A stretch of DNA of 64,000 nt, taken from contig JAAXKN010000017.1 in NCBI GenBank assembly GCA_025612375.1, positions 1 to 64,000 of the forward strand, in the 5' to 3' direction. Made by a program: the position numbers and the translations under genes. Below the pieces are notes generated by a model that did not search any database, had not been told where the DNA came from, and saw only the letters and a list, made by a program, of their open reading frames with translations. The number at the start of each line of letters is the position of its first letter. Position 1 is the first letter of the stretch. This document shows, piece by piece, positions 14,961 through 58,600 of this stretch. The DNA comes from Ignavibacteria bacterium. Its GTDB lineage: Bacteria > Bacteroidota > Ignavibacteria > Ignavibacteriales > SURF-24.

Positions 14961-17429
14961 TTATTTTACTACAATATTATAAATTTTATTCTTCACGTAG
15001 ATTTCTTTAACTATGGTCTTTCCGTCTATGTGCTTTTTAACCCCGTCGGCCGAGAATACTAGAGCCTTAACCGACGCCTGGTCGTTTTCAGCAGGGACTT
15101 CAAGCGTTGCCCTCAGCTTTCCGTTTACCTGTACTGCAACGGTTACCCTGTCTACAGTAAGTGCGTCTGGATCGGGCGAGTACCAGTTGGCCTGCTCGAA
15201 GATGGAGCCTTTTTTGCCGATCATCTCCCAGCACTCTTCCCCCATGTGAGGCGCAACAGGAGCAATGAGGCATGCAAAGCGCTCAAGCACATAGCTCTGA
15301 AGATTGGGCCTGCACTTCTCCAGGTTTTTCGCAAGCTCGTTTACAAGTTCCATCAATGCCGCAACGGCAGTATTGAAACGGAAATTATTAATCTCTTCGT
15401 CGTATTTAACTATGGTCTGATTGATCTTTCTGTAAACGCTCTTTTCCTCTTCCGAAAGCGTCTGAACGCTGAACTTGTCGGGAGCGGGGCTGTTTATTAC
15501 GACGTTTTCAAACTTCTGGAAAATGTCGTAGGACCTCTGAACAAACCTGTCCACTCCAACGATACCCGAATCGCTCCAGTCGCCGCCTGCCTCGTATGGG
15601 CCCATGAACATCAGGTAAAGACGGAAGACGTCGCTTCCATACTTGCTTATAAATACATCGGGGTTAACGACGTTGCCTTTGGACTTGGACATCTTGGCGC
15701 CCTGGTTTGTAATGGTGCCCTGATGAATAAGGTTTGAAAATGGCTCGTCGCTGTGCGCCATTCCAAGGTCCCTTAAGAACTTGTGTATGAATCTTGCGTA
15801 CAAAAGGTGCATCGTTGCGTGCTCGGCTCCGCCCACGTACATGTCCACCGGTGTCCAGTCGTCTGCAAGCTTCTTATTGAACATATTTCCTTTTTCGTGA
15901 GGATCGAGGTATCTGAAATAATACCAGCTTGAATCGACAAATGTATCCATTGTGTCGGGATCCCTCTGTGCCTGGCCCCCGCATTTGGGGCAGGTGACGT
16001 TCATGAATTCCTTGTTTGTTGTAAGGGGCGACTTTCCTGAGGTTGAGAATTCCACGTTATATGGAAGTTCAACCGGAAGGTCTTTTTCTTCAACTAAAAC
16101 CTCGCCGCACTTCTCGCAGTGTATTACGGGTATTGGTGTTCCCCAGTACCTCTGGCGCGAGATTAACCAGTCTCTTAACCTGTAGTTGGTTTTTCTTTTT
16201 CCGTTGCCTTCTTTTTCGAGGAAGTCCGTTATGCCCTCAATTGCCTTGTCTGAAGGCGTGCCTGAAAAAGCGCCTGAGTTAATGAGCTGTCCCACTTCGG
16301 TATAGGCTTCATTTAAGGGATCAGCCTCACCTGTGCCCGGCTGAAGCACAACCTTGCGGATGGGGAGGCTATACTTATGTGCAAATTCAAAATCGCGCTC
16401 ATCGTGGCCCGGAACTGCCATAACGCATCCCGTTCCGTAGGTAGCAAGTACGTAATCTGCCACCCAGATCGGTATCTTCTCACCGTTTACAGGGTTAATT
16501 GCGTATGAGCCAGTGGGGACGCCTGTTTTTTCTTTTGTGGTTGAAGTCCTGTCGATCTCAGAAAGCGACTTAACAGAGTCAAGGTAAGCAGCAACCTGTT
16601 CCTTATATTCAGGCCTGGTCAGTTTCTGCACCAATGGCTGCTCAGGAGCCAGAACGACGTAAGTTACGCCGAAAAGCGTGTCGGGGCGTGTGGTGAAAAC
16701 CGTAATTTCATCTTCATGGCCTTCAATCCTGAATTTCACTTCCGTACCCGTGCTTTTACCGATCCAGTTGCGCTGCATGAGCTTTGTTTTCTCTGGCCAG
16801 TTTATTTTCTCCAGGCCTGACAAGAGCTCCTCGGCATACTCGGTGATCTTAAAGAACCACTGTGTAAGGTTTTTGTGAATGACTGTAGTTCCGCAGCGTT
16901 CGCAGGTTCCGTCTGAAAGCACCTGCTCGTTTGCAAGCACGGTCTGGCAGCTGGGGCACCAGTTAACGGGCGCGTTTTTCCTGTAAGCCAGCCCCTTTTT
17001 ATAAAGCTGTATAAAAAGCCACTGGTTCCACTTGTAGTATTCCGGTACGCAGGTCATCAGTTCCGAATCCCAGTCGTACATGTTACCCATATTTTTAAGC
17101 TGCACGCGTATGTCTTCAATATTTTTCATCGTGCTGTCGTATGGGTGAATTCCCGTCTTAATGGCGTAGTTCTCAGCCGGTAGTCCGAAGGCGTCGTAGC
17201 CTATAGGCTCGAAGACGTTAAAGCCTTTAAGTTTTTTGTATCTTGCCCACGAATCCGTCGGTCCGTAGTTATACCAGTGTCCGCAGTGCAGTTTTGCACC
17301 CGAAGGGTAAATAAACATTACGAGGCAATAAAGCTTGCTTTCTTTTTTAGAAAGGTTGGTTTTATATATCTTATTCTCTTCCCAATAAGACTGCCATTTC
17401 TTTTCAACTTCAGAAAAAGGGTATCTCAT
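14961..17429 (-). CDS. leuS: Leucine--tRNA ligase
   Basis: Class I synthetase that charges tRNA-Leu. 822 residues. The HIGH-type signature is HCGH in SGAKLHCGHWYNYGPTD, and the second signature is KMSKSKGNV. The inserted editing (CP1) domain has the threonine-rich TTRPDTLFGVTYV and the Asp region GTGCVMAVPGHDERD that hydrolyses mischarged tRNA. Zinc-type cysteine pairs occur at CPSC...CERC and again at CEKC...CPKC. It leads the leuS-serS transcript. About 110 nt upstream on the same strand lies a terminator-like hairpin closing the candidate RNA at 17537-17654, so the leuS promoter probably lies between 17430 and 17536. Confidence 0.98.
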   Translation of the reverse strand: MRYPFSEVEKKWQSYWEENKIYKTNLSKKESKLYCLVMFIYPSGAKLHCGHWYNYGPTDSWARYKKLKGFNVFEPIGYDAFGLPAENYAIKTGIHPYDSTMKNIEDIRVQLKNMGNMYDWDSELMTCVPEYYKWNQWLFIQLYKKGLAYRKNAPVNWCPSCQTVLANEQVLSDGTCERCGTTVIHKNLTQWFFKITEYAEELLSGLEKINWPEKTKLMQRNWIGKSTGTEVKFRIEGHEDEITVFTTRPDTLFGVTYVVLAPEQPLVQKLTRPEYKEQVAAYLDSVKSLSEIDRTSTTKEKTGVPTGSYAINPVNGEKIPIWVADYVLATYGTGCVMAVPGHDERDFEFAHKYSLPIRKVVLQPGTGEADPLNEAYTEVGQLINSGAFSGTPSDKAIEGITDFLEKEGNGKRKTNYRLRDWLISRQRYWGTPIPVIHCEKCGEVLVEEKDLPVELPYNVEFSTSGKSPLTTNKEFMNVTCPKCGGQAQRDPDTMDTFVDSSWYYFRYLDPHEKGNMFNKKLADDWTPVDMYVGGAEHATMHLLYARFIHKFLRDLGMAHSDEPFSNLIHQGTITNQGAKMSKSKGNVVNPDVFISKYGSDVFRLYLMFMGPYEAGGDWSDSGIVGVDRFVQRSYDIFQKFENVVINSPAPDKFSVQTLSEEEKSVYRKINQTIVKYDEEINNFRFNTAVAALMELVNELAKNLEKCRPNLQSYVLERFACLIAPVAPHMGEECWEMIGKKGSIFEQANWYSPDPDALTVDRVTVAVQVNGKLRATLEVPAENDQASVKALVFSADGVKKHIDGKTIVKEIYVKNKIYNIVVK

Positions 17430-17536
17430 AGCTGTGTGTATATATTTTGTGAAAAAATAAAATTAAAATTATCGAAAAAGGAGCGGTTTATCAAGGCAAA
17501 GGGGGAGTTTGACATAATTATAGATATATAAATAAC

Positions 17537-17654
17537 AAAAAAATCCCCATAAGATGGGGAAAATTCCGTTTTGGATCGTCAAATGTATACTAAACCGCTG
17601 CTTTTTAGGCGCGGCAGAATTATTTCCGCCTTTTATGGCAGCGGTCGGAATTTT
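17537..17654 (-). ncRNA. Candidate structured small RNA with its own terminator
   Basis: Read on the minus strand, the arms nest as follows. P1 is 9 bp: AAAATTCCG (17654-17646) with CGGAATTTT (17568-17560). P2 is 8 bp: ACCGCTGC (17645-17638) with GCAGCGGT (17601-17594). P3 is 7 bp: GGCGGAA (17630-17624) with TTCTGCC (17619-17613) over an ATAA loop. P3 contains a G-U wobble that pairs only on the minus strand. A 25-nt one-sided bulge (17593-17569) carries TACATTTG. Immediately after P1 come CCCCAT-CTT-ATGGGG and seven Ts (17559-17537), a standard terminator. A TATATTTG box (17700-17693) could be its promoter element. A 6S-like RNA is one hypothesis; a leuS leader is another. Confidence 0.6.
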
Positions 17655-17662
17655 AGCTTATT

Positions 17663-17680
17663 TTTAGCATTAATGCTAAA
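17663..17680. promoter_or_regulatory. Perfect 18-bp palindrome upstream of the M16C protease gene
   Basis: TTTAGCATT followed by AATGCTAAA is a perfect two-fold palindrome. It lies 21 bp before the AAGGAGGT ribosome-binding site of the protease gene and just outside the candidate RNA on the other strand. It could be a repressor operator or fold as a hairpin in the 5' leader. Confidence 0.45.
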
Positions 17681-17717
17681 CTATGTATTCTTCAAATATA
17701 CAAGGAGGTCAACTTCA

Positions 17718-20708
17718 ATGAAATCAACACAGCTCTTATTACCTCTATTGCTGGTGTTTATGGCTGTAGTAAGCTCAGCCCTTTACGCCGGATTCAAAAA
17801 AGGAGAAACCTATCACGGTTTCAAACTCCTGGAAAAACGTTTTGTAAAGGAAGTAAACGCCGAATGCCTTTACTTTGAACACGTTAAATCGGGTGCAAGG
17901 CTCCTTAAGATTGCAGCAGGCGATCCGAATAAGACTTTCGGCGTGGGCTTTAAGACCGTGCCCAATTCAGATTGCGGAACGCCGCACATCATAGAACACT
18001 CGGTCCTTAACGGATCAAAAAATTATCCCGTTAAAAGCCCCTTCGACGTCCTGTCCAAAGGCTCACTTAAAACATTCCTTAACGCTTTTACAGGAAGCGA
18101 CAGGACGTTTTATCCTTTTGCCAGCATGAACGACAAGGACTACTTTAACCTCATGAGGATCTATCTTGATGCGGTTTTTAACCCCCTCATCTATAACGAT
18201 CCCAGAATTCTTAAGCAGGAAGGGTGGCATTATGAACTGGAAAATAAGGATGCCCCTGTCGTCTATAAAGGCGTAGTGTATAACGAAATGAAGGGCGCTT
18301 ACTCAAGCCCCCAGCGCGAACTTGACTATGAGATAAATAAAATCCTTTTTCCCGATAACGGCTACAGGTTCTCCTCGGGCGGTTACCCCACGGCAATACC
18401 TAAACTTACCTACGAGGATTTCCTTAATTTCCATAAGACTTACTACCATCCCGTCAACAGCCACATAGTTCTTTACGGCGATGCCGACCTGGATAAGGAG
18501 CTTGCGCTTATTGATTCGGAATACCTTACAAAGTTTGAGAAGTCAGGCGGACGCCCGCAGATACCCCTGCAGAAGCCTTTCGACAAGATGAAGGAAAAAA
18601 CAGCCTGGTATTCAATCGGTGAAAACGACAAGCCGGAAGGTCAGACTTTCCTTTCGCTTAGCTTTGTTGCAGGGCTTAATTCCGACCAGGCGCTTGTTAT
18701 GTCTTTGAACGTTTTAACTGACGTGCTTGTAAACCAGGAAGCTGCTCCTGTGCGCCTTGCGCTTCAGAAGGCGGGAATTGGAAAAGATGTATACGCTGCT
18801 GTCGACGACATTCAGCAGAACGTCTTCCAGATTGTTGTTCAGAATGCCAACCCTTCTGATAAGGACAAATTCCGTGAGGTTGTAATGCAGGCTCTGAAGG
18901 AAGCAGCTGAAAAAGGTCTGGACAAAAAGGCCGTTGAAGGCACCTTGAACCGCATTGAATTCCAGCTGCGCGAAGGCGACGACGCTCAGAAAGGTTTAAC
19001 CTACGGCTTCCAGGCCCTTCCCGGCTGGTTCTTTGCCGACGACCCCTTCTTAACACTGGAATATGAAAAGCCATTGGCTCAGGTTAAAACAGCCCTTACA
19101 AGCAGGTATCTTGAAAACATAATCCAGAAAGATTTAATTGATAACCCTCACTCGCTTCTTCTTACTCTTGAACCCAAGCCGGGACTTGAAAAAGAGAACA
19201 TTGCAAAGATGAACGGTGAACTGGCTGAATATAAAAAGTCACTTTCACCCGAAAAGATAGATGCCCTTGTTAAGGAGACAAAGGACCTGATTGCTTACCA
19301 GAAAAGAGAGGATACGCCCGAGGCCCTGGCAACTATACCGATGCTTGAAAGAAAGGACATAAACCCCAAGGCTGAATTCTATTCGCTGGAGGAAAAGAAA
19401 GTTGCAGGCGTCACTGTCTTAAGCCGCGAGGAGTTTTCAAACCAGGTTGAATACATAAGATTTTTGTTTGACGCCCGCGTGCTGCCTACAGAGCTTGTTC
19501 CTTATGCGGCATTGTTAACAGAAGTCCTTGGAAGCCAGAACACCGATAACTATTCTTACGGCGATCTGGATCAGGCACTAAACATCCATACCGGCGGCTT
19601 CAGAAGCTATCTCTCAACTTTCCTTGAGGACAGGGATGACAACAAGATGATGCCGAAATTTGTACTGGACTCTAAAGCCATGAACAGCAAGACTGACAAG
19701 CTCTTTGAACTGGCCTCTGAAATTGTAAACCATACTCGCTATCAGGACCTTGACCGCCTGAAGGATATAATAGTCCGCTACCAGTCGCGCCTCGAGTCCC
19801 AGGTGAAAGAAGACGGACGGGGCTTTGCGCTTAAGCGCCTGCAGGCATATTTCACTAATGCCGGAAAATTCAAGGAGGCTACAGGAGGCTTTGATTACTA
19901 CTGGTTCATTTCAGACCTCGCTAAGAATTTCGACGCCAGATCCAAAGAGATCAGTGACAATCTGGCTAAAACGGCGGCGCTCCTTTTTACAAAAGACAAT
20001 ATGATTGTAACTGTAACTGGTGCCAGGGAAGACTACGAAAAAACTGCAGGCAAAATTGAAGAGTTCACAAAGAAACTCCCCGAAGGAAAAAGCCAGTACA
20101 AAACCTGGTCTTTCAAAATGGATAAGAAGAACGAGGGATTCCTTTCACCCTCAAAAGTACAGTTCGTTCTGCAGGGCTACGACTTCAGGCAGCTCGGCTA
20201 CTCATGGAGCGGAAAGATGAGGGTCCTCGATCAGATACTTTCAACAGATTATCTGCACAAACGCTTGAGAGTTATCGGCGGCGCCTACGGCGGATACTCA
20301 AACTTCTCTCCCGAGGGCGGAGTTCTCCTGGCTTCATACCGCGACCCGAACCTGAAGGAAACTTTGGACAATTACATGGGAACTCCGGAATATCTTGAAA
20401 AGTTTCAGGCCGACGAAAAGGAAATGACACGCTTTATCATAGGCACAGTTGCAAGAATGGATATGCCTTATACACCTTCGCAAAGAGGCAGTATTGCGGT
20501 TAAATATTTCCTTGAAAAAACAAAGCCTGAGGACCTGCAGAAAGAGCGCGATGAGGTTCTTTCCACAACGGTTCAGGACATTCGTGAAATGAAGAAACTG
20601 GTCTCAGACGTGGTTGCAAAGAAGACCTACTGCGTATATGGAAACGAAGAAAAGCTGAAGTCGCAGAAGGATCTTTTCGGAAGCCTCGAAAACATTAATC
20701 ACCAGTAA
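17718..20708 (+). CDS. M16C (PreP-like) zinc metalloprotease, exported
   Basis: 996 residues. Family M16C enzymes degrade unstructured peptides inside a closed clamshell chamber. The inverted zinc motif HIIEH holds His90, Glu93 and His94, and the third ligand Glu190 lies in NEMKG, 96 residues later as in PreP. The C-terminal half carries the Arg/Tyr region near RVIGGAYGGYSNFS that completes the active site. The ATG at 17718 is chosen because AAGGAGGT sits 8 nt before it and it begins a signal peptide (LLLPLLLVFMAVVSSALYA), implying periplasmic action. The frame stays open to 17571, but that stretch overlaps the candidate RNA and does not look like protein. A terminator follows at 20735. Confidence 0.93.
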   Translation: MKSTQLLLPLLLVFMAVVSSALYAGFKKGETYHGFKLLEKRFVKEVNAECLYFEHVKSGARLLKIAAGDPNKTFGVGFKTVPNSDCGTPHIIEHSVLNGSKNYPVKSPFDVLSKGSLKTFLNAFTGSDRTFYPFASMNDKDYFNLMRIYLDAVFNPLIYNDPRILKQEGWHYELENKDAPVVYKGVVYNEMKGAYSSPQRELDYEINKILFPDNGYRFSSGGYPTAIPKLTYEDFLNFHKTYYHPVNSHIVLYGDADLDKELALIDSEYLTKFEKSGGRPQIPLQKPFDKMKEKTAWYSIGENDKPEGQTFLSLSFVAGLNSDQALVMSLNVLTDVLVNQEAAPVRLALQKAGIGKDVYAAVDDIQQNVFQIVVQNANPSDKDKFREVVMQALKEAAEKGLDKKAVEGTLNRIEFQLREGDDAQKGLTYGFQALPGWFFADDPFLTLEYEKPLAQVKTALTSRYLENIIQKDLIDNPHSLLLTLEPKPGLEKENIAKMNGELAEYKKSLSPEKIDALVKETKDLIAYQKREDTPEALATIPMLERKDINPKAEFYSLEEKKVAGVTVLSREEFSNQVEYIRFLFDARVLPTELVPYAALLTEVLGSQNTDNYSYGDLDQALNIHTGGFRSYLSTFLEDRDDNKMMPKFVLDSKAMNSKTDKLFELASEIVNHTRYQDLDRLKDIIVRYQSRLESQVKEDGRGFALKRLQAYFTNAGKFKEATGGFDYYWFISDLAKNFDARSKEISDNLAKTAALLFTKDNMIVTVTGAREDYEKTAGKIEEFTKKLPEGKSQYKTWSFKMDKKNEGFLSPSKVQFVLQGYDFRQLGYSWSGKMRVLDQILSTDYLHKRLRVIGGAYGGYSNFSPEGGVLLASYRDPNLKETLDNYMGTPEYLEKFQADEKEMTRFIIGTVARMDMPYTPSQRGSIAVKYFLEKTKPEDLQKERDEVLSTTVQDIREMKKLVSDVVAKKTYCVYGNEEKLKSQKDLFGSLENINHQ

Positions 20709-46066: not shown

Positions 46067-47605
46067 TTGGAGGATCTGGCTATCGAAAAGCAAAATAAAA
46101 CCCAGAATGATATAGTTGAGAAAATTGTTTCTCTGGCTAAAAGAAGAGGATTTGTATTCCAGTCGAGCGAAATCTACGGAGGCCTTAACGGCTGCTGGGA
46201 TTACGGCCCGCTTGGAGTTGAACTCCTTAAAAATATAAAGGAAGAATGGTGGAAATTCATGACCTACAGGAAAAATATCGAGGGGATTGACGCCGCCATA
46301 CTTATGCACCCAAGAGTTTGGGAAGCCTCAGGACATGTGGCTAATTTTACCGATCCAATGATCGACTGCAAACAGTGCAAGGCGCGTTTCCGCCTCGATA
46401 CACTGGCAGAACTGATTTCAGCCAAGAAAAAAGAAAAGGCGGTTAAAGCCCTGCACGAAGTTGTGGCAGAACATCCTGAGCAGATCCGGAAGCTTGATGA
46501 ACTCACACAGGGCAAGTTTACCGATGAGGCTTCAATGAATGAGGCTTTTGACGCCGTCTTGGAGGACCAGGATCTTGGCAAAAAGCTTTTATCAATTCTT
46601 AACTGCCCGCAGTGCGGAAATGCAGGCACTTTTACCTCGGCAAGGCAGTTTAACCTCATGTTCAAAACTTTCATCGGCCCGGTTGAAGATTCAGGCGCCG
46701 TAGTTTACTTGAGGCCTGAGACCGCACAGGGCATATTTGTAAATTTCCTGAACGTCCAGAACTCCAGCCGCCAGAAGCTCCCATTTGGAATTGCACAGAT
46801 CGGCAAGGCGTTCAGAAATGAAATTAATACGAAGAACTTCCTCTTCCGTACACGTGAATTTGAACAGATGGAAATGCAGTTCTTCATTAAGCCTTCTGAT
46901 GACGATAAGTGGTACGAATACTGGAAAGAACAGCGCATAGAGTGGTTCAAGGCTCTGGGTATGACCCCCGACAAGCTGAGATTCCATGACCATCCGCAGG
47001 ATAAGCTGGCTCACTATGCTAAAAAAGCTACTGATATAGAATACCTCTTCCCCTTCGGCTGGGGTGAAATTGAGGGTATTCATAACAGGAAGGACTGGGA
47101 CCTCAGCCAGCACCAGAAATTTTCCAATAAATCTCTTCAGTATTTTGACGAGGAATCAAAGGAAAAATTCGTTCCTTATGTAATTGAAACTTCAGCCGGC
47201 GCAAGCCGCTCATTTATGGCATTCTTAATCGATTCTTACTACGAAGAAGAAGTTAACGGCGAGCAGAGGTCTGTTCTTAAATTCCACCCGCGCCTGGCTC
47301 CCATTAAGGCTGCCGTTTTACCGCTCGTAAATAAGGACGGTATGCCTGAAATAGCTCAGAAGATAGACCGCGACTTAAGGCCTTTCCTCAGGGTGTTCTA
47401 CGACGACAAGGGTGCCATAGGCCGCAGATACAGAAGAATGGACGAGGTTGGTACTCCGTACTGCATTACCGTTGATACACAGACACTCGAGGACCAGACG
47501 GTTACAATTAGGGAAAGAGACTCCATGCAGCAGGAAAGGGTCGCAATTGACCAGCTGCTGTCCTATTTCCAGAAAAAACTTGTTAACAGCAGCCTCGATT
47601 TCTGA
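46067..47605 (+). CDS. glyS: Glycine--tRNA ligase (dimeric type), non-ATG start
   Basis: About 510 residues, alpha2-type class II synthetase. Motif 1 region SSEIYGGLNGCWDYGPLG, a zinc-type CKQC...CPQC pair, motif 2 FRNEINTKNFLFRTREFEQME and motif 3 SAGASRSFMAFL are all present, with an anticodon-binding domain at the end (GIGRRYRRMDEVG-like region). No ATG is available: the first internal Met falls past the conserved N-terminus. A TTG at 46067 begins the frame, but it lies in the Shine-Dalgarno GGAGGA (46069-46074). CTG at 46076 or ATC at 46082 (7 nt after that site) would be better placed. Confidence 0.95.
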   Translation: MEDLAIEKQNKTQNDIVEKIVSLAKRRGFVFQSSEIYGGLNGCWDYGPLGVELLKNIKEEWWKFMTYRKNIEGIDAAILMHPRVWEASGHVANFTDPMIDCKQCKARFRLDTLAELISAKKKEKAVKALHEVVAEHPEQIRKLDELTQGKFTDEASMNEAFDAVLEDQDLGKKLLSILNCPQCGNAGTFTSARQFNLMFKTFIGPVEDSGAVVYLRPETAQGIFVNFLNVQNSSRQKLPFGIAQIGKAFRNEINTKNFLFRTREFEQMEMQFFIKPSDDDKWYEYWKEQRIEWFKALGMTPDKLRFHDHPQDKLAHYAKKATDIEYLFPFGWGEIEGIHNRKDWDLSQHQKFSNKSLQYFDEESKEKFVPYVIETSAGASRSFMAFLIDSYYEEEVNGEQRSVLKFHPRLAPIKAAVLPLVNKDGMPEIAQKIDRDLRPFLRVFYDDKGAIGRRYRRMDEVGTPYCITVDTQTLEDQTVTIRERDSMQQERVAIDQLLSYFQKKLVNSSLDF

Positions 47606-47629
47606 AAATAAGAAACAATTTTGACTTTC

Positions 47630-47677
47630 ATATTAGTAAAGACACAAGTAATATAAATTGTATGTCTTTACTAATAT
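47630..47677. promoter_or_regulatory. Perfect 15-bp inverted repeat next to a ribosome-binding site
   Basis: ATATTAGTAAAGACA (47630-47644) and TGTCTTTACTAATAT (47663-47677) are perfect reverse complements with an 18-bp spacer. The right arm directly abuts GGGAGGA (47678-47684), the ribosome-binding site of the lipoprotein gene at 47689. There is no T-tract, so it does not look like the glyS terminator. It may be an operator or an RNA hairpin. Confidence 0.6.
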
Positions 47678-47688
47678 GGGAGGATTGA

Positions 47689-48585
47689 ATGAAAATTGTT
47701 AACGTTCTTTTATTTTTTGTCGTGCTTGCAGTCTCAGGCATGGTTTTTCTGGAAGGCTGCTCCAGTAACGATTCAGGTACTAATCCCGTTTCTCCCGGCG
47801 GCCCTGCCGCCCCGGCGGATGTTAATGTCGTCTTGTCGGCAATTCCGGGCGGGGGAAGTAATGCCAGGGTTTCCTGGACTAAATCCACCAGCAACTCTGC
47901 AGGAGACTTTGCAGGATACCAGGTTATTACAAATAAAGTTGATACTACCGGTAAAGTATTGAGCCGCGCCGATTCTGCCCTCGTGGTAAAATCCGACAGC
48001 TCTTTTCATATTGTTAACCTGGATCCCGGCCGCAGCACCAGGTACCAGACGAAAGTCTATGCCGTAAATGGTGACGGCACAAGAAGCCAGGCTGCAACTT
48101 CGGTTATCTATGCCGCCATCTATGAGTATACCAACCAGACTATTGACGAGTTCTCGGCTGCCTCTAATGCGGCTAAAAGCGGCTTCGGATGGGACCCGTT
48201 CCTGGGCGGGGGCACACAGCTGGCATATAGCTCCGATAATGCCTCCAGAATCGACCTTAATATGAGAATGGACAACACTGACGGAGCAATGAAATTCTAT
48301 TCGCCTTCTTCAGCCAAAGCGCCGCTGACAAACGGGCACGATACCAAACTTTCACTCATTGGAACAGGGCAGGCGGCTTATGATAAGGCGGAAGGACTTG
48401 CTGAACCAACTTTAAGTGAAATTGCAATTACTCCCGATAACGTATATCTCATTAAAACACAGGCCGGCAACTACATTAAACTGTGGGTCAAAAGCCTCGG
48501 AAAACTTTCGGGAAACTCGTATAATACCGCTACATTCGACTATAAACTTCAGCCTTTTGCGGGTTTAAGAGTCCTTAAAAGATAG
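47689..48585 (+). CDS. Lipoprotein with fibronectin type III domain
   Basis: 298 residues. The signal runs from MKIVNVLLFFVVLAV to a lipobox LEGC. A Ser/Gly/Pro linker leads to a fibronectin type III domain (about 40-145: APADVNVVLSAIPGG, ARVSWTKSTS, HIVNLDPGRSTRYQTKVYA). The C-terminal 150 residues are beta-rich and unrecognised. It is probably surface-exposed on the outer membrane. GGGAGGA precedes the ATG, next to the inverted repeat at 47630-47677, and a terminator follows at 48604. Confidence 0.8.
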   Translation: MKIVNVLLFFVVLAVSGMVFLEGCSSNDSGTNPVSPGGPAAPADVNVVLSAIPGGGSNARVSWTKSTSNSAGDFAGYQVITNKVDTTGKVLSRADSALVVKSDSSFHIVNLDPGRSTRYQTKVYAVNGDGTRSQAATSVIYAAIYEYTNQTIDEFSAASNAAKSGFGWDPFLGGGTQLAYSSDNASRIDLNMRMDNTDGAMKFYSPSSAKAPLTNGHDTKLSLIGTGQAAYDKAEGLAEPTLSEIAITPDNVYLIKTQAGNYIKLWVKSLGKLSGNSYNTATFDYKLQPFAGLRVLKR

Positions 48586-55699: not shown

Positions 55700-58600
55700 T
55701 TATTTTTTCTTGTTCGTTTTCTTAGCTGCTGTCTTGACGTTTCCTTTTCCAGCCTTTTTAGCAACTACGGCTTTCTTAGGAGCGGCCTTTGCCTGGGCAG
55801 CTTTCTTTGCGGCAGGTTTAGCTGCTGTCTTTACAGCTGCCTTCACAGCTGCCTTCACAGCTGCCTTTGCTGCCGGTTTGGCTGAAGCCTTGGCTGCAGT
55901 TTTAGCAGCAGTTTTAGCAGCAGTTTTAGCAGCAGTTTTAACTGCCGGCTTGGCTGCAGGTTTCTTGGCTGCTGCTTTTTTTGCAACCGGCTTTGCAGCC
56001 TTCTTTGCAGCTGTCTTTGCCACTGCCTTAACTGCCGGCTTTGCAGCAGTGACTGCCTTTGACTGCTGTTCCTTCAGTGCAGCTCTTGCAGCGGCAAGGC
56101 GTGCAATTGGAACTCTGAATGGTGAACAGCTTACATAGTTGAGACCTGCCCTGTGGCAGAATTCAACTGAAGCCGGATCGCCTCCGTGCTCGCCGCAGAT
56201 ACCAACCTTAAGCTCAGGTCTTACTGAACGGCCTTTCTGCGTGCCGATCTCAACCAGCTGTCCGACACCTTCAACGTCAATTGAGATGAAAGGATCAATC
56301 GGGAGGATTTCCTTCTCAACGTAAAGAGGCAGGAACTTGCCGGCGTCATCTCTTGAAAGACCGAATGTGGTCTGTGTAAGGTCGTTGGTTCCAAAGCTGA
56401 AGAACTGAGCGCGTTCTGCAATCTTGTCTGCTGTTACGGCAGCTCTCGGCAGCTCGATCATGGTTCCTACCAGAAAATCGATCTTTACGCCCTTCTCCTT
56501 CATGACTTCAGCTGCAACCCTTCTTACGATCTCTTCCTGGAGCTTCAGTTCTTCAACTGTGCTTACAAGAGGAATCATAATTTCAGGCTTAACCTTGATC
56601 TTCTTCTTTGAAACGTTGCATGCGGCTTCGAAGATAGCCCTTGCCTGCATTTCAGTGATTTCAGGATAGCTGATGCCAAGGCGGCAGCCCCTGAAACCGA
56701 GCATCGGGTTGAATTCCTTGAGGGATTCGATCTTATCGATTACTCTCTGTGCAGGAACGTTCAGCGAATTTGCAACTTCCTGGATCTCATCTGCTTCGTG
56801 AGGCAGGAATTCATGCAAAGGTGGATCCAGAGTTCTGATTGTTGCAGGTCTTCCGCCCATGGCCATGAAGAGTCCTTCAAAATCGTCTCTCTGATAAGGA
56901 AGCAGTTTTGCAAGCGCAGCCTGTCTTTCCTCGTGTGTCTCGGCAAGTATCATCTCTCTTACAGAAAGAATCCTGTTCTCGCCGAAGAACATGTGCTCTG
57001 TACGGCAAAGGCCTATACCTTCGGCTCCGAATGCAATTGCATTCTGTGCCTGATCAGGCTGGTCGGCGTTGGTTCTGATGCCAAGGCGCCTTACCTTGTC
57101 GGCCCATGTCATAAGATCATTGTATGTCTTGAATACGGCTGATTCCTGGGGCTTCATGGTCTTTGTAATAAGAACCTGAACAACCTCTGAAGGCTTGGTC
57201 TCAAGTTTTCCAACAATAACTTCACCTGTGGATCCGTCGATTGATATATATTCGCCACGGTTGATAACAACGTCTTTGCCTGATACCCTGATAGTTCCGG
57301 CAGCGTAGTTGATGAGGAGGTTACCGCATCCTGCAACGCAAACCTTGCCCATCTGGCGTGCAACCAAAGCAGCGTGTGAAGTCATACCGCCTCTTGCTGT
57401 TAAGATACCTACTGCAGCGTTCATACCTTTGATATCTTCAGGAGAGGTTTCAATTCTGACAAGAACAACTTTTTCGCCCTTGGCTGCTTCTTCTTCAGCT
57501 TCTTCAGCCGAGAAGACAACTTTGCCTGAAGCGGCGCCCGGACCTGCGTTGAGGCCTTTGGCAATAAGCCTTCCTTCGTCAACGGCTTTTTTCTTTTCCT
57601 TTGAATCGAAGATAGGCCTTAAGAGCTGGTTCAGCTGATCGGGCTCAATTCTCATTAAAGCTTCTTCGCGCGAAATGAGTCTTTCCTTTACCATATCATA
57701 AGCGATTTTGATGGCGGCAAAGCCTGTTCTCTTTCCAACGCGGCACTGGAGCATCCAGAGCTTGCCCTGCTGGATTGTGAACTCGATATCCATCATATCC
57801 TTGTAATGCTTTTCGAGCTTCTTTCTGATGTCGTCAAGCTGCCTGTAGATTTTTGCGTTGTCTTCCTTCAGTTTTGCAATGGGAAGAGGAGTGCGTACGC
57901 CGGCAACGACGTCTTCGCCCTGTGCGTTAAAGAGGTATTCTCCGTAGAATACATTTTCGCCCGATGCCGCGTCTCTTGTAAATGCAACGCCTGTACCTGA
58001 ATCTTCTCCCATGTTGCCGAATACCATCGACTGAACGTTAACGGCTGTACCCCAGCTGGCAGGTATGTCATTAAGCTTTCTGTAAACGATGGCTCTTTCG
58101 TTCATCCATGAACCGAATACAGCGCCGATTGCGCCCCAGAGCTGTGTCATAGGATCATCGGGGAAACTGTTGCCGGTCTTGGCCAGGATTTCAGCTTTGA
58201 ATTCCTGTACCAGTTCTTTCAGGTGATCAGCTGTAAGGTCTGTATCTTTTGTAATTCCGTTCTCGTGCTTTTTCTTGTCCAGGATAACTTCAAACGGATC
58301 GAGTTCATGCTTTTCGACCGGTTTAAGTCCCAAAACAACGTCGCCATACATCTGAACAAATCTTCTGTATGAATCGTAGGCAAATCTCGGATTATTTGTC
58401 TTGGCAATCAGGCCTTCAACTGTAGTATCATTCAAGCCGAGGTTTAAGATTGTATCCATCATACCAGGCATTGAAGCTCTGGCGCCGCTCCTGACAGAAA
58501 CCAAAAGCGGGTTTTTAGGATCGCCAAATTTGGCTCCCATTTCCTTTTCAACTTTCTTGAGAGCGTCCAGCACCGACTTCTGCAGCTCTGCTGGATACTT

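Follow-up and report, generated by a model that had tools for sequence, protein, structure and literature searches.

The question raised by the divergent intergenic spacer between leuS and an M16C (PreP-like) metallopeptidase gene, whose product matched the Pfam models M16C_assoc and PreP_C, is whether the hairpin helices P1-P4 that it harbors (Table 1) belong to a maintained structured RNA. The initial annotation had favored such an RNA with a terminator of its own, either a 6S-type polymerase-binding RNA or, alternatively, a leuS leader attenuator. The coordinates, the helices and the T7 tract that it listed were recovered in our analysis of the window (the whole stretch of 64,000 nucleotides), as was the 25-nt bulge with its TAnnTTTG-like box; the four pairings are not all nested, since P4 adjoins P1 and shares base 17560 with it. 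The arms of P1 and P2 are contiguous on the high-coordinate side.

Table 1. Features of the leuS/M16C spacer and its flanking genes (positions in the window).
Feature	Position	Strand	Remarks
leuS, leucyl-tRNA synthetase	14961..17429	minus	
Predicted leuS promoter, TTG-N20-TAATTTTA (full box TTGATAAACCGCTCCTTTTTCGATAATTTTA)	17494-17464	minus	65 nt before leuS start codon
P4, intrinsic-terminator-like hairpin	17544..17560	minus	7 bp, loop of 3, then T7 at 17537-17543
Imperfect inverted repeat, helices P1-P3 with 25-nt one-sided bulge	17560..17654	minus	folds on either strand
P1	17654-17646/17568-17560	minus	9 bp
P2	17645-17638/17601-17594	minus	8 bp
P3	17630-17624/17619-17613	minus	7 bp, one G-U on minus strand
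TACATTTG, -7-like box inside the 25-nt bulge	17587-17580	minus	TGTATTTG in congener
Predicted M16C promoter -7 TATTTTTA and overlapping palindrome TTAGCATTAATGCTAA	17659..17681	plus	palindrome identical in congener; promoter role putative
TATATTTG, proposed -7 box	17700-17693	minus	no TTG 18-22 nt upstream; not kept in congener
M16C (PreP-like) metallopeptidase gene	17718..20708	plus	AAGGAGGT immediately 5' of start codon

Both parts of this arrangement, P1-P3 and the terminator, exceed chance. In 1000 dinucleotide shuffles of the spacer, contiguous nested helices of at least 16 bp arose six times and a comparable terminator (7-bp stem, T-rich tail) once, with the reservation that both tests were framed after the feature had been seen and the figures flatter the hairpin and the terminator. 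The fold of the minus strand has a z-score of -4.25, none of 200 shuffles being equally stable. The fold of the plus strand is just as good (z -4.0) and, over a 130-nt segment, even slightly more stable (MFE -43.7 vs -40.8 on the minus strand), so that the G-U pair in P3, which had been offered as evidence for the minus strand, does not settle the orientation; the T tract alone gives the hairpin a direction, namely minus. When 130-nt segments were slid along the 64 kb, the locus came out on either strand as one of the few with the lowest energies, without being the lowest. In the same slide, the regions 47561-47750 and 55781-56010 folded more stably than the hairpin locus, also on both strands.

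Conservation was assessed against Ignavibacteria bacterium isolate bin-C14 (G001; M16C locus L125), the sole congener compared, so that the following values describe one genome pair. The congener possesses the same divergent gene pair in the same order, with 89% identity for leuS and 85% for M16C. Within the spacer, identity amounts to 87% in the M16C-side promoter block and 89% in the leuS promoter block, against 55% in the P1-P3 segment and approximately 46% at the four-fold degenerate sites of leuS and of M16C alike; the rate of change in the hairpin segment is therefore close to neutral, in contrast to the constraint on the two promoters. Only four of the nine P1 pairs, three of the eight P2 pairs, four of the seven P3 pairs and three of the seven P4 pairs can form in the congener (14 of 31 in total, 17 being broken), and no compensatory pattern was detected in these pairs. 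Its spacer folds unremarkably (z -1.7 and -1.2), no terminator was found in it, and neither of the two TAnnTTTG boxes (TACATTTG and TATATTTG) is kept. Conservation or compensation of P1-P3 in relatives, on which the initial annotation had staked its RNA, was not seen in this comparison, and with 17 pairs broken and the terminator missing a structured RNA under conservation finds no support.

The wider search led to the same genus. BLAST against 391 genomes of the class matched only this genome and the congener, and none beyond the genus. A covariance model gave a credible score among the relatives only for the congener spacer, which it matched mainly via its unpaired 5' part; by both methods, the match to this syntenic spacer rests mainly on the conserved M16C promoter block. 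Neither BLAST nor the single-sequence covariance model of the window sequence detected a second copy in the genome, and the congener holds a diverged sequence of similar length instead of an empty site; a mobile or repeated palindromic element was rejected on these grounds. A spacer shared with other M16C homologues was likewise discarded, because leuS adjoins M16C only in this genome and the congener among the M16C loci fetched.

The promoter of leuS is recognizable well beyond this genome pair. Bacteroidota promoters have TAnnTTTG at -7 and TTTG at -33 as their consensus (PMC7366714), and a TTG-N18-22-TAnnTT box or close variant is present in all 27 leuS upstream regions compared (this genome, the congener and 25 relatives, mostly from other families of the order), with the promoter-type box located at -57 to -67 from the start codon in 25 of the 27. 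A TTGA-N-TAnnTTT promoter is seen order-wide at an almost fixed distance from leuS. In the present genome, this box sits downstream of the P4 terminator, and the usual -7 geometry predicts that leuS transcription starts near 17457; with the start placed after the terminator, P1-P4 should be absent from the leuS mRNA. The attenuator that had been proposed as the alternative reading, suggested by the position of a terminator-bearing structure upstream of an aminoacyl-tRNA synthetase gene, is contradicted by this order of elements, the more so as the promoter box occupies its order-wide position. In T-box and leuS leader attenuators the leader is placed between the leuS promoter and the start codon, an interval outside which P1-P4 lie, and Rfam searches of the window, run with gathering and with permissive thresholds, gave no match to a T-box or aminoacyl-tRNA-synthetase leader family. 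We regard a leuS leader attenuator as extremely improbable.

On the opposite side of the hairpin, TATTTTTA (17659-17666) is a plausible -7 box of the M16C promoter, a proposal drawn from one genome pair: the block GCTTATTTTTAGCATTAATGCTAAA, which contains it, is identical in the congener, and no TTG was found at the right distance from the box. The overlapping TTAGCATTAATGCTAA (17664-17679) is a perfect palindrome at the presumed M16C start site, which is predicted near 17673; it lies within a 26-nt block invariant in the congener and occurs as a single copy in the genome even when two mismatches are allowed. The palindrome resembles an operator of the M16C gene or a hairpin close to its start site. 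The M16C reading frame remains open for 49 codons 5' of its start (17571-17717), spanning the hairpin, and is closed in the congener. As a coding extension this frame was rejected in view of the ribosome-binding site at the start at 17718 and the closure of the congener frame just 5' of the start; it is probably open by chance. Given that the plus-strand fold is equally stable, the hairpin could also be conceived as a regulatory element in the 5' UTR of M16C, but the conserved TATTTTTA and its surrounding block are downstream of the hairpin, which would place it upstream of the M16C start site, and the hairpin itself is not conserved. This possibility therefore appears improbable, if less remote than an attenuator of leuS.

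The 6S-type RNA idea has in its favor a long interrupted hairpin, as in 6S RNA (RF00013) and 6S-Flavo (RF01685), with a TAnnTTTG-like box in the bulge, as well as the fact that the Rfam 6S models give no other candidate 6S RNA in this genome. It fails on Rfam matching, on bubble architecture and on the conservation of the promoter-like boxes. Rfam models, those for 6S and 6S-Flavo included, matched nothing in the window above chance at gathering and permissive thresholds, and neither RF00013 nor RF01685 exceeded the cut-off over the whole genome; of two sub-threshold genomic matches, the better one (RF00013) falls inside a coding frame, and failure of 6S models in this phylum does not prove that the organism is devoid of a 6S RNA. 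The central bubble of 6S RNA, which separates the closing from the terminal stem, is open on both strands, in contrast to the one-sided 25-nt bulge of this locus, whose 5' side, formed by the contiguous 5' arms of P1 and P2, holds no unpaired base. Finally, both sequence and structure are lost within the genus. We give the 6S reading practically no credence.

What remains to be explained is the terminator. Like intrinsic (Rho-independent) terminators, P4 is a stable hairpin (G+C-containing 7-bp stem, 3-nt loop) directly followed by a tract of seven T; unlike them, it stands in a divergent intergenic region where no annotated gene ends. A minus-strand intrinsic terminator in this position is supported by its sequence features and may represent either the end of a local minus-strand transcript, or a shield of leuS, or a relic. 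Among the relatives, leuS-strand terminators within 450 nt of leuS were confined to loci whose nearest long frame upstream is co-directional with leuS (e.g. L044, L045, L047, L061 and L063); none of approximately 17 divergent leuS upstream regions, as delimited by crude ORF calls, has one, which makes this window the exception among divergent arrangements and speaks against insulation as a general need.

The explanation that we prefer, and hold to be moderately probable, is that a lineage-specific intrinsic terminator shielding leuS and an unconserved hairpin share a divergent-promoter spacer, with no maintained RNA structure involved. The hairpin segment would then be the spacer between two divergent promoters, one for leuS (minus strand) and one for the PreP-like M16C peptidase (plus strand); P4, if used, would end any minus-strand transcription that begins within or beyond the spacer ahead of the leuS promoter, which lies approximately 50 nt further on; and P1-P3 would be a hairpin without conservation, in spacer DNA that evolves rapidly. 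We observe directly a terminator sequence, a leuS promoter box situated downstream of it, and pairing that is lost in the congener; that the terminator works and that insulation is its role we infer.

Since the terminator exceeds chance and insulation is not a general need, there is room for a real local RNA, namely a lineage-specific small RNA of approximately 100-150 nt that the minus strand of the spacer would encode and whose 3' end would lie at the P4 terminator. The strong fold and the terminator are consistent with it, and so is the frequency of strain-specific, terminator-bearing intergenic small RNAs in Bacteroides: 27 of the 49 high-confidence intergenic small RNAs of B. thetaiotaomicron are strain-specific (PMC7366714), so that a young small RNA need not be conserved. 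The locus resembles these RNAs, many of which are limited to a single strain, in its intergenic position, its 3' terminator and its narrow distribution; it differs in its weak promoter and in being known from sequence alone. The promoter search yielded only -7-like boxes, none with a correctly spaced -33 element and none conserved in the congener, and thus no well-formed Bacteroidota promoter. In particular TATATTTG, which the initial annotation had placed as the promoter of an RNA of roughly 130-150 nt, adjoins the M16C ribosome-binding site and, unlike the leuS promoters, has no TTG 18-22 nt upstream. With structure and terminator also lost in the congener, a lineage-specific small RNA is possible but unlikely, and slightly more doubtful still is the narrower proposal that this uncultured Ignavibacteria-related bacterium has, between leuS and M16C, a minus-strand small RNA that is young, specific to the species and equipped with its own terminator.

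If the preferred reading, that of a shielding terminator beside an unconserved hairpin, is true, the locus would be an ordinary terminator in a divergent-promoter spacer, from which little follows. The leuS promoter traced across the order (TTGA...TAnnTTT) is a useful by-product: it suggests that these bacteria follow the Bacteroidota-type promoter consensus, and it speaks against a leader that regulates leuS at this locus.
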